Shown here: one piece after another, positions 4,518-51,822 of the stretch | Layout of the letters: the number at the start of each line of letters is the position of its first letter | Position numbering within the stretch: the stretch's first letter is position 1 | Source: Clostridia bacterium | GTDB lineage: Bacteria; Bacillota; Clostridia; UMGS1810 | NCBI GenBank assembly: GCA_017416845.1 | Contig: JAFQBA010000049.1 | Coordinates: 1-64,000, forward strand | Length of the DNA: 64,000 nt | Direction: 5' to 3' | Made by a program: the position numbers and the translations under genes | The notes under the pieces: generated by a model | Database searches by the model: none | What the model saw: only the letters and a program-made list of their open reading frames with translations | What the model was told of the DNA's origin: nothing

Positions 4518-6494
4518 CTAACCTAAATATTCATCTATAACTTTTATTAATTTTTCATATACTTCATCTGTGGTTGTATCTGAAAGTTGAGCTCCGGCTA
4601 TAGTCATGTGACCTCCGCCGCCGAGCTTTTCGGTGATAACCTGAACATTTATATCACCAAATGACCTTGCACTGATAATAATTTTATCGCCCATATCACA
4701 AATAACAAACGATGAAGAAATGTTTGTTATATTAAGCATTTCATCAGCAGCTTGAGCTACAACGGTCTGCATATCTTCATCATTCTTTTCACATACTGCT
4801 ATGGCAACCTTTTCACGATATGTTGAAGCTTGTTCTATAATTGCCCATTTTTTTACAAAAGTGTTTAAATTAATCTGGAAAAGTTTTTTAACTTCTATTG
4901 TATCTACACCGCATCGTTTGAGATATGAAGCCGCTTCAAATGTACGAACACCTGTTTTAAAAGTGAAATTCTTTGTATCCATAAAAATTCCGGCATATAA
5001 AGCTTCTGCCTCTGATTTGTTGAGCTTTGTCTCTGATATATATTGAATTATTTCTGTAATAAGTTCACTGGCTGAAGAAGCATATGGCTCGTGGTATGTT
5101 ATAAGAGAGTCCTTTATGAAATCTGTACTTTTTCTGTGGTGATCTATAACTATCGTGTTTTTTGTAACATCAAGAAGGGCAGGCTCTTCCACAAGAGAAT
5201 ATTTTTGAGTGTCTACAACGAGAAGCAGTGTGTCCGGCGTGATAAACTCATTAGCATATGGTTTGCTGACAATGATATTAGAGTACAAATCATTGTATTT
5301 ATTCAAATATCTTTCTACGGTCTGATTGTATGTTTCCATAACAATTTTAGCGTTTTTTCCCAAGGATCGTATTATGGAATATAGCCCCAGAGCTGAACCT
5401 AAAACATCAACATCGGCATATTTATGACCCATGATAAAAATCTGTTTTGAATCGAGTATGATTTCCCTCATTGCCTGAGATACAACTCTTGCTTTTACTC
5501 TTGTTCTTTTCTCAACTTCTTGGGTTTTGCCGCCATAAAATCGGAATTGATCATCATCTTTAATTACAACCTGATCGCCGCCTCGACCTAAAGCCATATC
5601 GAGGGCAGAATATGCATATACATCATTTTGCTGTAGTGTCTGACCATCTGTTCCGATGCCTATACTCAGGGTTGGAGCAACCTTGTTTCCGGCAAGGATT
5701 TTTTTAAAGTCCTCAAGAAAAGTAAAATTGTCAGTTATCATTTTGTCAAGATATGATTTTTGAATATAAAGGAAGTATCTGTCTTTTTCATACTTGTTTA
5801 AAATTCCGTTTGCATCCTGAGCAATTGAATCGAGAGATTCTTCCATAAACGCTGTGAGCTGAGGTTTATCGGCGTTGTTTGTACTCTGCATTACATCATC
5901 ATAGTTATCTATTACAATTACACAACTTACAAATGATTCAGAATAATGCTGTAATTTGAGTTTGTCATATTTTGTATTATCATACCAATATGTGACTATA
6001 TAAAAATCGTCGTCATTATTCTCGTCATAATAAATAATATCTCCGAAAACAATATATGAATTGTCGTTGAACTTAATTTCATATTTAATTATATTTTTGT
6101 TATCATCAACAACATAATCGTTTATGGAAAAACCCGGTATATATTCTGATACGGAGTGATTGTAGGTTACATCCTCATTACAGATTTCGTCAAATCTTTT
6201 GTTCGTCCACTGAATTGTACTGTTTTTGCTGATAATAGCAACAGGAATAAAAAAATCTGTTAAGCTTCTGAATTCAGTATATACCAAATCTATATCCATG
6301 CTTTTTACAAATTTTGATATTTGACTTTTTTTTCGTTTTTCGGCAAAAACAAAAACTACAGTTAATAATATTGTGAAAACAGCTTGTATAAAGGCGATTT
6401 TATAATCATATAATAAAGATATGCATACAAACACAAAAAGCAACCATAAATAATATACAGGATTAAGAGATATTACTCTGAGTATTTTCTTCAA
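4518..6494 (-). CDS. gdpP: Cyclic-di-AMP phosphodiesterase GdpP (YybT family)
   Basis: GdpP hydrolyses cyclic di-AMP to pApA and so tunes potassium and osmotic balance, cell-wall stress and beta-lactam tolerance. The 658 residues show two N-terminal membrane helices (about 10-50), a PAS-like region (about 60-170), a degenerate GGDEF domain with GRGGDQ at 303-308, and a DHH domain with GHKYADVD at 356-363 and DHH at 451-453. A DHHA1 domain with GGGGH at 625-629 ends it. All metal-binding residues I know of seem present. The start is TTG at 6494, preceded by GGGAGTGA; no in-frame ATG fits better. It leads the operon with rplI and dnaB. Confidence 0.94.
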
Positions 6495-46932: not shown

Positions 46933-47781
46933 TTAATTCTTTTTTAATAGTTTTCTTCCTAACTCCATAATCTTATCTGTAATATGATGTTTGGATGATG
47001 ATTTGTTACATTCGGTTATATACATAAAACCAATTAATAGTGATAGAGAGTCAATCCCTGCATCATCCAATGTTTCTATTTGATTATCAATAAAAGAAAG
47101 ATTTCTGCGTTTAACCGGATTATATGAATTCAAATCAGCAGTTTTAATCTTCAGCATATCAATAACAGACTCAGTAATTTCAGAATTGTGATAAAGAGAT
47201 ATTCTTATAAGTTTTTCAACAGCATCATTAATAGTTTCAGATAATACATCTGATAAACCCGCAGCTGTCGTCAATAACATTTTGTCTATGGAATTTAACT
47301 CAACAAAAGGAATACATATAATTCGACACATTGTTAAAAAATCATTGTACAAATCTCCATATCCCTGAATAAACATTCTTTGGAAGCCTTTCTCGTGTAT
47401 GAGAAAATATGACGATATATATGTGTTTTCAAAACCAAAATCAAGAACATCTGCGTTAAATCCGGGGTTGAAATGTATTAAAATCTTATTTCGTATGCCA
47501 TGTCCCTTAAGGGTTTTAGAGAGATTTTTAAGAGCTGATTCAGGAAGAAAAACCATTATTATATCAGATTTGGCAAATAAATCATCAGCATTAAGAAATA
47601 CACACATATCGTTTGCAGCTGCAAATTGTATACTATCTGCAGGGTTTGTTGTGAAAACACCCCCGGGTTGAAGCGGAATCTCTTCATAACCATTCAGCTT
47701 AATATAATCTTCTAAGATATCACGTATGTATAAGTTAACAAAACTTGCCGGTTTTGAAAGACCAAGATATGAATATATCAT
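46933..47781 (-). CDS. Degenerate Rossmann-like protein (DUF2520-like)
   Basis: The 282-residue protein resembles NAD-binding two-domain oxidoreductases of the ProC/ketopantoate-reductase group. An alternating pattern, SDIIMVFLPESAL (about 72-84), matches the strand after the cofactor domain, and the C-terminal half (about 150-282) is helical as in DUF2520 proteins. The glycine loop GxGxxG expected near residue 8 is replaced by YLGLSKPASF, so cofactor binding is doubtful. It overlaps the PHP stop by 4 nt and has GGAGG 7 nt before the ATG. I do not recognise a specific function. Confidence 0.65.
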   Translation of the reverse strand: MIYSYLGLSKPASFVNLYIRDILEDYIKLNGYEEIPLQPGGVFTTNPADSIQFAAANDMCVFLNADDLFAKSDIIMVFLPESALKNLSKTLKGHGIRNKILIHFNPGFNADVLDFGFENTYISSYFLIHEKGFQRMFIQGYGDLYNDFLTMCRIICIPFVELNSIDKMLLTTAAGLSDVLSETINDAVEKLIRISLYHNSEITESVIDMLKIKTADLNSYNPVKRRNLSFIDNQIETLDDAGIDSLSLLIGFMYITECNKSSSKHHITDKIMELGRKLLKKN

Positions 47782-48464
47782 TGATGTTCCTCCGAATACT
47801 TGATAATCACTTTTTTAGAAAGAGTATTCAATAGTGTTGCATTGTCCTTGATAACATTACGAGTATAAAGAGCAACAGCACCTTCGTCACCTCGCTCGTG
47901 AAAATCGGAACCGCCGCATTTTAATAGTTTGAATTTATTTGCCCATAATTTTGCAATATCATTACGTGAATCGTGTCGAGAGTGTCCATTCAATATTTCT
48001 ATCCCATCAATATTAGAAGGATTAACAACAGTCATTCCGTCCCTGAATGGGTGAGCGTGAAATATAAGCATGTTATGCATATGTGCAAGCTCTGCGAACT
48101 CCTTAAGATGCATGTTCAAAAAATTGTGCTCATCACTATAACTGTATTTTCGCACAAAATCTTCAGTCATACCATAAACAAGATAATCATTATTGGTGTA
48201 TAAATTACGATATTCCATTCCAAGTAAAATATTAATTCTGCCCTTTGCAGCTTCTTTGGCTAATTTATATGCACTTAAAAATATATCGTTTCTCTCATTC
48301 CATGAAGTTGCTTTAGAAAAACCGGATGTATACTGAGAATAATGATTTGTAATAACGAGTGATGAATAATTTTTATTAATATATAATTCCACTGCATCTG
48401 CAGTGGAAACACTTGAACACTGACTGACTTCTGCAGTATGACAATGAAGCTCTGTTTTATACAT
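47778..48464 (-). CDS. PHP domain phosphoesterase
   Basis: The 228-residue protein has the four PHP motifs: TELHCHTAEVS near the start, ITNHYS, an AHAHPFRDG (here FHAHPFRDG) stretch, and GGSDFHERG near the C-terminus. These ligate two or three metals. Family members include histidinol phosphatase and nucleotide phosphoesterases; there are no histidine genes near. I chose the ATG at 48464, after AGGAAG. It is coupled with the Rossmann-like gene and topB. Confidence 0.87.
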   Translation of the reverse strand: MYKTELHCHTAEVSQCSSVSTADAVELYINKNYSSLVITNHYSQYTSGFSKATSWNERNDIFLSAYKLAKEAAKGRINILLGMEYRNLYTNNDYLVYGMTEDFVRKYSYSDEHNFLNMHLKEFAELAHMHNMLIFHAHPFRDGMTVVNPSNIDGIEILNGHSRHDSRNDIAKLWANKFKLLKCGGSDFHERGDEGAVALYTRNVIKDNATLLNTLSKKVIIKYSEEHQ

Positions 48465-48520
48465 AGGTATCACTTCCTAAATTGATTTGTTTTATTATAG
48501 AATCAGTGAACAAAATAGAT

Positions 48521-50478: not shown

Positions 50479-50568
50479 GGAGAGGTGGCTGAGCTGGTTG
50501 AAGGCGCAGCATTGGAAATGCTGTAAACGGCTATAACCGTTTCGAGGGTTCGAATCCCTTCCTCTCCT
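50479..50568 (+). tRNA. tRNA-Ser (GGA anticodon)
   Basis: The gene folds with a perfect 7-bp acceptor stem (GGAGAGG/CCTCTCC), a 5-bp anticodon stem CAGCA/TGCTG with loop TTGGAAA (anticodon GGA, reading UCC/UCU), the long variable arm of serine tRNAs (AAACGG/CCGTTT), and a T arm with GTTCGAAT. The discriminator base is T, where bacterial serine tRNAs almost always have G. CCA is not encoded. Promoter and terminator frame it as a one-gene unit. Confidence 0.95.
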
Positions 50569-50608: not shown

Positions 50609-51583
50609 TTAAATATATTCTAAAATATCTTCATCGTATATTAGAGGTAATTTTACAATCTCATTTTTATTATAGTTAAGCTTTAAAGGATTAATTTTTA
50701 TGATTCTGTGATTTGTGTATGTTGTGTAATATAAATTAAAATTATCAAGATCGTAGCAGGATGTATACAGTGTTTTATCAAACATATTATTTTCTGTTTG
50801 AACACACCCCTCCTGTTGACATACAGAGTTTAAAATGTGAAAGAATTGCCCTACACATTGTTTGGGATTAATATAATCATTAGTACTATTTAATTTTGTA
50901 AAAGCAGCCTTAACAAAACGTGACATAGAAGATAAATCTCCCGGAAGACCGATAGCCCCCATTCCACGGCTATATTCATTAAAATCAATTATTTCGGAAA
51001 ATGTAGTTTTACCATTATCGGTTGTAAGATTTTTGTAATTATTAAGATTAAACATTTGAGTTTTAAAATCAGGACCATTTGTCAAAACCCCAATTTTGTT
51101 TTCGTATATTCTTATTCCTTTTTCATCACATTCCAATACAAATGAAGATTCACTGTCACATATCATCCAATGAAGAGGTTCCGGTTTAAATTCATTCGAA
51201 AATTCTTCCGAAGTAATATTTATGTTTTGCAGCAAATTGATTGCAGTGCTACACGATGAACAATTATATAACAGATACAATATGAACTCATAAGAAGGAA
51301 TATTATGCTTGTTTTCAATATTTTTGTTGTAATTTGCATCGGGGTAACGAAGCGCGCATACTCCGAGACCATGCTCATTTATTGCATCAAACATAAGTGG
51401 ATATCCTTGAGAGACAACTCCAATTCCCAATATTGTTGATTTAGTTTTGGAAGTATTATTATATTTTAGATTGACAGGATAATCAGCAGGAATTATAATA
51501 ACATTTTCACCATATGTCCTTTCTACATCAAAATTTCTGCCGAAAAAATGATGCTTTGAATTTAAATGGATTGCTGTACACAT
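50609..51583 (-). CDS. Choloylglycine hydrolase family protein (bile salt hydrolase-like, Arg in place of Asn82)
   Basis: Members are N-terminal nucleophile hydrolases that deconjugate bile salts or cleave penicillin V or acyl lactones. The 324 residues start MCTAIHLN, so Cys2 becomes the nucleophile after Met removal. Arg16 and Asp19 (GRNFD), Asn169 (VLTNG) and Arg222 (SMSRF) match the usual catalytic residues. The position of Asn82 in known bile salt hydrolases, or Tyr in penicillin acylases, is Arg79 here (GVCALRYPD). I chose ATG 51583 after GAGGTG; the longer frame would hide Cys2. No signal peptide. Substrate thus uncertain. Confidence 0.88.
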   Translation of the reverse strand: MCTAIHLNSKHHFFGRNFDVERTYGENVIIIPADYPVNLKYNNTSKTKSTILGIGVVSQGYPLMFDAINEHGLGVCALRYPDANYNKNIENKHNIPSYEFILYLLYNCSSCSTAINLLQNINITSEEFSNEFKPEPLHWMICDSESSFVLECDEKGIRIYENKIGVLTNGPDFKTQMFNLNNYKNLTTDNGKTTFSEIIDFNEYSRGMGAIGLPGDLSSMSRFVKAAFTKLNSTNDYINPKQCVGQFFHILNSVCQQEGCVQTENNMFDKTLYTSCYDLDNFNLYYTTYTNHRIIKINPLKLNYNKNEIVKLPLIYDEDILEYI

Positions 51584-51675
51584 TTGTTTCACCTCTTGAT
51601 TATTATTAAGAATAATTAAGTCAATTATTCCAAACATGTGACATAACATAGAAATATTTTAGTGAAATAAAATTA

Positions 51676-51730: not shown

Positions 51731-51811
51731 GCGGATGTGGCGGAATTGGCAGACGCGCTAGACTTAGGATCTAGTGATTTTATCGTGGGGGTTCAAGTCC
51801 CTTCATCCGCA
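51731..51811 (+). tRNA. tRNA-Leu (TAG anticodon)
   Basis: Acceptor stem GCGGATG/CATCCGC, anticodon stem CTAGA/TCTAG with loop CTTAGGA (anticodon TAG, reading CUA), a variable arm and T loop GTTCAAGTC. Discriminator is A, as expected for leucine. CCA is not encoded. Confidence 0.95.
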
Positions 51812-51822
51812 CTAAACAGTAG

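Follow-up and report, generated by a model that had tools for sequence, protein, structure and literature searches.

A BSH-clade choloylglycine hydrolase of a clostridial genome with arginine at the position of Asn82 and a valine at residue 20

The window is a stretch of 64,000 nucleotides from a Clostridia bacterium (contig JAFQBA010000049.1). At positions 50609..51583 it holds one open frame on the minus strand (51583..50609), encoding a protein of 324 amino acids that starts with Met1-Cys2. The preliminary description gave the correct coordinates but no strand; the gene is on the minus strand, and the plus strand of 50609-51583 has stops throughout. The features used below are the following.

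50609..51583, minus strand: choloylglycine hydrolase gene of the bile salt hydrolase (BSH) type, 324 aa (frame, Pfam, NCBIfam, PDB match, fold match)
51590..51595, minus strand: ribosome-binding-site-like GAGGTG, 6 nt before the ATG (read by eye)
51578..51580, minus strand: codon of Cys2, the predicted nucleophile once Met1 is removed (sequence, alignment)
51524..51526, minus strand: codon of Val20; among 115 distinct rows, only the three with a basic residue 79 have valine here (alignment)
51347..51349, minus strand: codon CGT of Arg79, in the Asn82 column of BSHs (alignment, read from the sequence)
51077..51079, minus strand: codon of Asn169, in the Asn175 column; oxyanion-hole side chain (alignment)
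50963..50971, minus strand: Ser205-Arg206-Gly207, S-R-G motif of the selectivity loop (motif read from the sequence; meaning after the passages on the loop in PMC10066039)
50918..50920, minus strand: codon of Arg222, in the Arg228 column (alignment)

A longer in-frame start is available at 51649. The start at 51583 is preferred because the Ntn fold needs cysteine as residue 2 and because a ribosome-binding site is seen by eye directly before 51583 only. The source genome (3.3 Mb in 142 contigs, estimated as 79.5% complete) has a single match to PF02275, which is the window gene.

The neighbours of the gene are htpG upstream and a protein with a copper-amine-oxidase N-terminal domain downstream. 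Of 16 genomes, 11 gave a match to htpG, and the htpG regions were compared from two genomes of the same family (G003, 7 kb; G008, 6 kb); no other neighbour of the window gene was matched beside htpG in these two. A conserved neighbourhood was therefore dropped as a clue to function, the lack of shared neighbours leaving no operon or empty-site argument. The gene is flanked by tRNA-Ser(GGA) at 50479-50568 and tRNA-Leu(TAG) at 51731-51812, both on the plus strand, opposite to the gene. At locus L091 a tRNA-Ser(GGA) likewise follows the sister gene described below, but on the same strand as that gene. A 58-nt direct repeat (L091:4635-4692 and 4826-4883, 95% identical, spacing 191 nt) begins there in the 3' end of the tRNA-Ser(GGA) and covers the hairpin after it; it appears to be a short duplication or insertion at the tRNA end. 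Elsewhere in the window, two adjacent minus-strand proteins (46933-47781 and 47778-48473) have no Pfam match at 1e-5. The second of them starts with His-x-His and presumably, judged by eye, resembles the PHP phosphoesterases.

The window protein matches the Pfam model CBAH (PF02275) over residues 2-310 with an E value of 1.9e-83 and 281.2 bits against a cut-off of 20.4. Cys2, Arg16, Asp19, Asn169 and Arg222 occupy the Cys2, Arg18, Asp21, Asn175 and Arg228 columns, as the preliminary description had placed them, and the protein belongs to the choloylglycine hydrolases. The NCBIfam equivalog model bile_salt_hydro (NF038245) is passed barely (359.5 bits; cut-off 350); two relatives of the same family, L003 and L011, pass it with 401 and 378. 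The earlier description of the protein as a BSH homologue holds, and it is placed within a mostly Asn-type BSH clade (see below). The penicillin V acylase (PVA) model NF058572 gives 158 against a cut-off of 600, a strict value which the Tyr-type rows L084 (425) and L079 (299) miss too. Scores also fall below the cut-offs for the acyl-CoA:6-APA acyltransferase model PF03417 (22.2 against 23.2) and the C45 model NF040521 (34.3 against 85). In the PDB, 29 distinct sequences were matched; the top 19 all carry names of bile salt, conjugated bile acid or choloylglycine hydrolases, and the BSH of L. salivarius comes first.

The predicted model of the window protein, based on 14 aligned sequences, matches solved BSHs with Z of about 32 (32.8 to BSH B of L. 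gasseri). Among the 50 entries listed in the fold comparison, the first 42, with Z from 33 down to 23, are structures of BSHs, PVAs or choloylglycine hydrolases. The model thus has the alpha-beta-beta-alpha Ntn fold, as far as a prediction with a mean pLDDT of 65, and of less than 50 over residues 1-6 and 163-223, can be followed. No side-chain geometry was taken from it because this confidence is only moderate. Position 82 of the family holds neither the aromatic residue of the PVAs nor the asparagine that is listed for BSHs together with the six active-site residues and is known to vary, but Arg79. Since arginine replaces this asparagine, the protein is called here a BSH-clade choloylglycine hydrolase, and its status as a BSH is not proven.

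PMC8066178 and PMC11736000 describe the oxyanion hole as made up of the Asn81/82 backbone NH together with the Asn175 (Asn173) side chain. As it is the backbone NH of residue 82 that forms the hole, its side chain can change without removing the hole. The preliminary description had located Arg79 at the oxyanion hole, which holds; the inference that the arginine alters the hole is weakened by this assignment and by the variability of the site, while the substrate preference may differ, as that description suggested. The side chain itself has other reported roles. Asn79 of L. salivarius BSH forms a hydrogen bond with the glycine carboxyl (PMC6711994), and in a simulation the barrier rose by about 6 kcal/mol when the charges of Asn82 were removed (PMC3289653). 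In the BSH of Enterococcus faecalis (EfBSH) activity is described as slightly reduced by Asn79Tyr and strongly by Asn79Trp (PMC8066178), and mutation of this asparagine markedly lowered activity in the BSHs of L. plantarum and L. salivarius (PMC6100381, PMC8066178). PMC6100381 reports seven residue types at the site in lactobacillar enzymes called BSH and links high activity with Asn or Gln. Position 82 has been proposed to tell BSHs from penicillin acylases (PMC8066178) and active from weak BSHs (PMC6100381).

Arg79 lies opposite Asn79 of L. salivarius BSH (5hke) in an alignment that is ungapped from residue 1 to past residue 79, so the earlier observation that the site carries neither Asn nor Tyr holds. 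No other asparagine was found at the oxyanion hole in the sequence alignment. That residue 79 is an artefact of sequencing, assembly or alignment, as the 142 contigs and the estimated completeness might suggest, is very improbable: the alignment around the residue has no gaps, and Arg79 recurs in a second genome of the same genus, together with Val20 and Ala77, which nearly refutes this explanation. The second protein (L003) is 47% identical to the window protein, and a protein identical to L003 is present on the public contig SVJL01000109.1, named 'Oscillospiraceae bacterium isolate SIG434'.

The residue is rare. In the class sample of 391 genomes, 85 had a match, at 92 places, of which 89 were read (88 and the window), three short or weakest matches (G235:C13, G206:C222, G297:C16) being left unfetched. 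Residue 79 in these 89 rows is N in 61, Y in 14, L in 3, R, H and A in 2 each, and M, S, K and F in 1 each; one fragment does not reach the column. In the window's own family, matches were found in 10 of 16 genomes, and the nine readable ones have N (5), R (2), K (1) and Y (1). Over all collected rows, viral-contig copies included, Arg79 occurs in 2 and Lys79 in 1 of 115 distinct sequences (the window plus 114 rows that reach 150 aa or more, taken from 146 matching loci); the alignment of column 79 is unreliable in the most distant rows, L092, L101, L102 and L131. The Lys79 protein is L011 (G011:C64), which also has Val20 and carries Ser-Asn-Gly instead of Ser-Arg-Gly in the loop. Matches were further obtained in 11 of 398 genomes drawn from the phylum and in 15 of 21 and 3 of 6 genomes of two other families; the rows read from these added no Arg79 or Lys79. 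Viral contigs yielded no relatives with the window protein as single query and none with the PVA-like queries A5 and A6. The alignment queries A2 and A3 found 21 and 25 viral loci, and their rows of at least 150 aa all have Asn at the site except the distant L131. A scan of genome contigs with patterns from two proteins returned the sister contig and one distant protein only. Among the papers listed by a literature search on arginine at this site in BSHs (10 of 30), none contained the term 'bile salt hydrolase'. Leucine at position 82 was seen in six choloylglycine hydrolases (L026, L050, L064, L132, L141, L143), five of them from one bacterial genus (g180) and the sixth from another family.

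A phylogeny had been proposed in the preliminary description. In a tree of 87 rows, built without column 79 and without the fragments L005 and L088, the window protein and L003 are sisters (100/97) nested in a clade of 64 rows (100/98), 54 of whose 62 other members have Asn at the site; the program warned of unsettled bootstrap, and several end branches are long. The tree requires a minimum of 13 changes in column 79, and one for arginine. Given the nesting of the pair in this mostly Asn-type clade, Arg79 seems to be a state derived among Asn-type BSHs rather than the mark of an old lineage intermediate between BSH and PVA.

Eight positions, Val20, Ala77 and Arg79 among them, are common to the window protein and L003 and occur in at most two of the 62 other clade rows. 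The branch of the window protein is long (1.22 against a median of 0.37). Of the 89 columns with a conservation of 90% or more among the 62 other rows, it retains 73, against 74 to 88 in the nine other rows counted; one of its 16 departures is an insertion. It is also changed at Tyr13, Ala76 and Phe80, positions invariant in all 62 other rows. The nucleotide differences between the window gene and the L003 gene fall 131, 88 and 207 on the three codon positions, and 85 of the 153 residues identical in both have differing codons. The gene has therefore been kept as a protein, as expected under selection for the product.

Val20 occurs in exactly 3 of the 115 rows, namely the two Arg79 proteins and the Lys79 protein L011, and in none of the 112 others. 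Phe20 is found in 16 of 17 Tyr79 rows; residue 20 of the Asn79 rows is Tyr, Leu, Phe, Trp, Ile or Asn. If the two sites were independent, the coincidence of the three Val20 rows with the three basic rows among 111 full-length rows would have a probability of 4.5e-6; this is not used as a significance level because the rows are related and at most two events are involved. On a tree of 42 rows, thinned by hand from the 87 after the first tree had been viewed (19 outer and 26 other rows dropped) and built without columns 20 and 79, L011 is placed apart from the window protein and L003, giving two origins of Val20 with a basic residue 79. The AU test does not reject a single origin (p 0.199, for a group chosen after the data were seen), and the paired test of the two sites gave p 0.5 with too few pairs. 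In PVAs an aromatic pair at the corresponding places is described as stacking on the penicillin V ring, and a double mutant of both positions was made in EfBSH (PMC8066178, its numbering being matched by family position without structural superposition). The link between Val20 and a basic residue 79, in three proteins, is the new point here, and Val20 may make room for Arg79.

PMC6711994 names eight sterane-pocket residues of L. salivarius BSH. Four of them (Tyr24, Leu63, Phe65, Phe130) are the same in the window protein, and the other four are replaced by residues that are still hydrophobic or aromatic (Leu20 to Val, Ile56 to Val, Phe100 to Tyr, Leu134 to Phe). The window protein has Glu21 and Arg206; in a BSH that prefers glycine, residues of these kinds are joined by a salt bridge (PMC10066039), the correspondence being by residue number and not by superposition. 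The S-R-G loop motif and Glu21 are reported there to go with glycine preference in lactobacilli, and the S-R-G loop may by analogy indicate such a preference here. The loop is not a shared trait, since L003 has Ser-Tyr-Gly, and a BSH from bison did not follow the loop rule (PMC11736000).

Among known enzymes, L. salivarius BSH (PDB 5hke, 5y7p, 8bls, 8blt) is the top PDB sequence match (E 2.5e-85); the plasmid-borne bsh product is about 45% identical to the window protein. It shares the five other catalytic residues besides the four sterane-pocket residues, but has Asn79, Leu20 and a Gly-Thr-Gly loop where the window protein has Arg79, Val20 and Ser-Arg-Gly. EfBSH (PDB 4wl3), from the next best organism, has the loop Tyr-Ser-Arg-Gly-Met-Gly in common with the window protein and differs from it by Asn at the site. 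The PVAs of Bacillus (PDB 3pva, 2oqc) have the fold of the window model (Z about 29) and a mechanism described as shared, with an aromatic residue at position 82 and a Phe partner (PMC8066178) in place of the Arg and Val found here.

The window protein is best explained as a BSH-clade cysteine Ntn amidase that would act on conjugated bile acids or similar N-acyl amino acids, to which a probability of roughly 0.5 is given. After removal of Met1, Cys2 would attack the amide of such a substrate; the residue-79 backbone NH together with the Asn169 side chain would hold the oxyanion, and the amino acid would then leave. Arg79 would stand in place of the Asn whose side chain contacts the amino-acid end of the substrate, with the smaller Val20 nearby. 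The expected effect would be on how tightly acidic leaving groups (glycine, taurine, other amino acids) are bound or which of them is chosen, and the mechanism would not be lost. This explanation is preferred because the NF038245 cut-off is passed, the clade is mostly of the Asn type, the eight named sterane-pocket positions hold either the same or other hydrophobic or aromatic residues, the hole is made by a backbone NH, Asn79 of L. salivarius BSH contacts the glycine carboxyl, Glu21 and Arg206 are present and the codon pattern is that of a protein-coding gene under selection. It has to reckon with the long branch, the 73 of 89 conserved columns, the half of the named sterane-pocket residues that are changed and the changes at Tyr13, Ala76 and Phe80, which reach beyond residue 79. 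The computed rise of the barrier, the reduced mutants of L. plantarum and L. salivarius BSH, the link of high activity with Asn or Gln, the loop of L003, the bison exception and the narrow NF038245 score also weigh against it. Conjugated bile salts would be the most likely substrate, the competing options being that the enzyme is weakened or has shifted to an acidic N-acyl substrate.

A BSH under relaxed constraint, correctly folded, with weak or lost activity and with Arg79 as one of several damaging changes, is unlikely. It would account for the long branch and the 16 departures, and for the loss of activity reported for mutants at this site (PMC6100381, PMC8066178), but it agrees poorly with the open frame, the ribosome-binding site, the retention of the five other catalytic residues and the codon pattern. 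Arg79 is moreover common to a sister that is only 47% identical and must therefore have been kept for long. A little more doubtful is that Val20 with a basic residue 79 is a third pocket state, beside Phe20/Tyr79 (PVA-like) and mostly Tyr or Leu20/Asn79 (BSH), which would favour a different N-acyl substrate, bearing an acidic group adjacent to the amide, over ordinary bile salts. The exclusive pairing of Val20 with basic residues and the Phe20/Tyr79 pairing fit such a state, as do the location at the aromatic pair of the PVAs, mutated together in EfBSH (PMC8066178), the double appearance on the thinned tree and the four altered sterane-pocket residues. However, only three proteins and perhaps one event are involved, the altered residues remain hydrophobic or aromatic, and L003 and L011 also pass the BSH model. 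It is still less probable that these proteins form a third substrate class, in which a positive charge of Arg/Lys82 by the oxyanion hole, combined with Val20, would select acidic N-acyl or unusual amino-acid bile conjugates, possibly having arisen twice within one bacterial family. The preferred explanation reads Val20 and Arg79 as a coupled pocket change in a presumably active BSH-type Ntn amidase.

The window thus contains a real and intact BSH-clade gene whose product has a rare residue where variation has been reported before. A basic residue at position 82 together with Val20 is a natural test of whether this site sets substrate choice, with Asn-type relatives for comparison. It would caution against labelling every PF02275 match in Clostridia a standard BSH. 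As matters stand, the general picture is unchanged, and the finding adds a modest, testable twist on a known enzyme.
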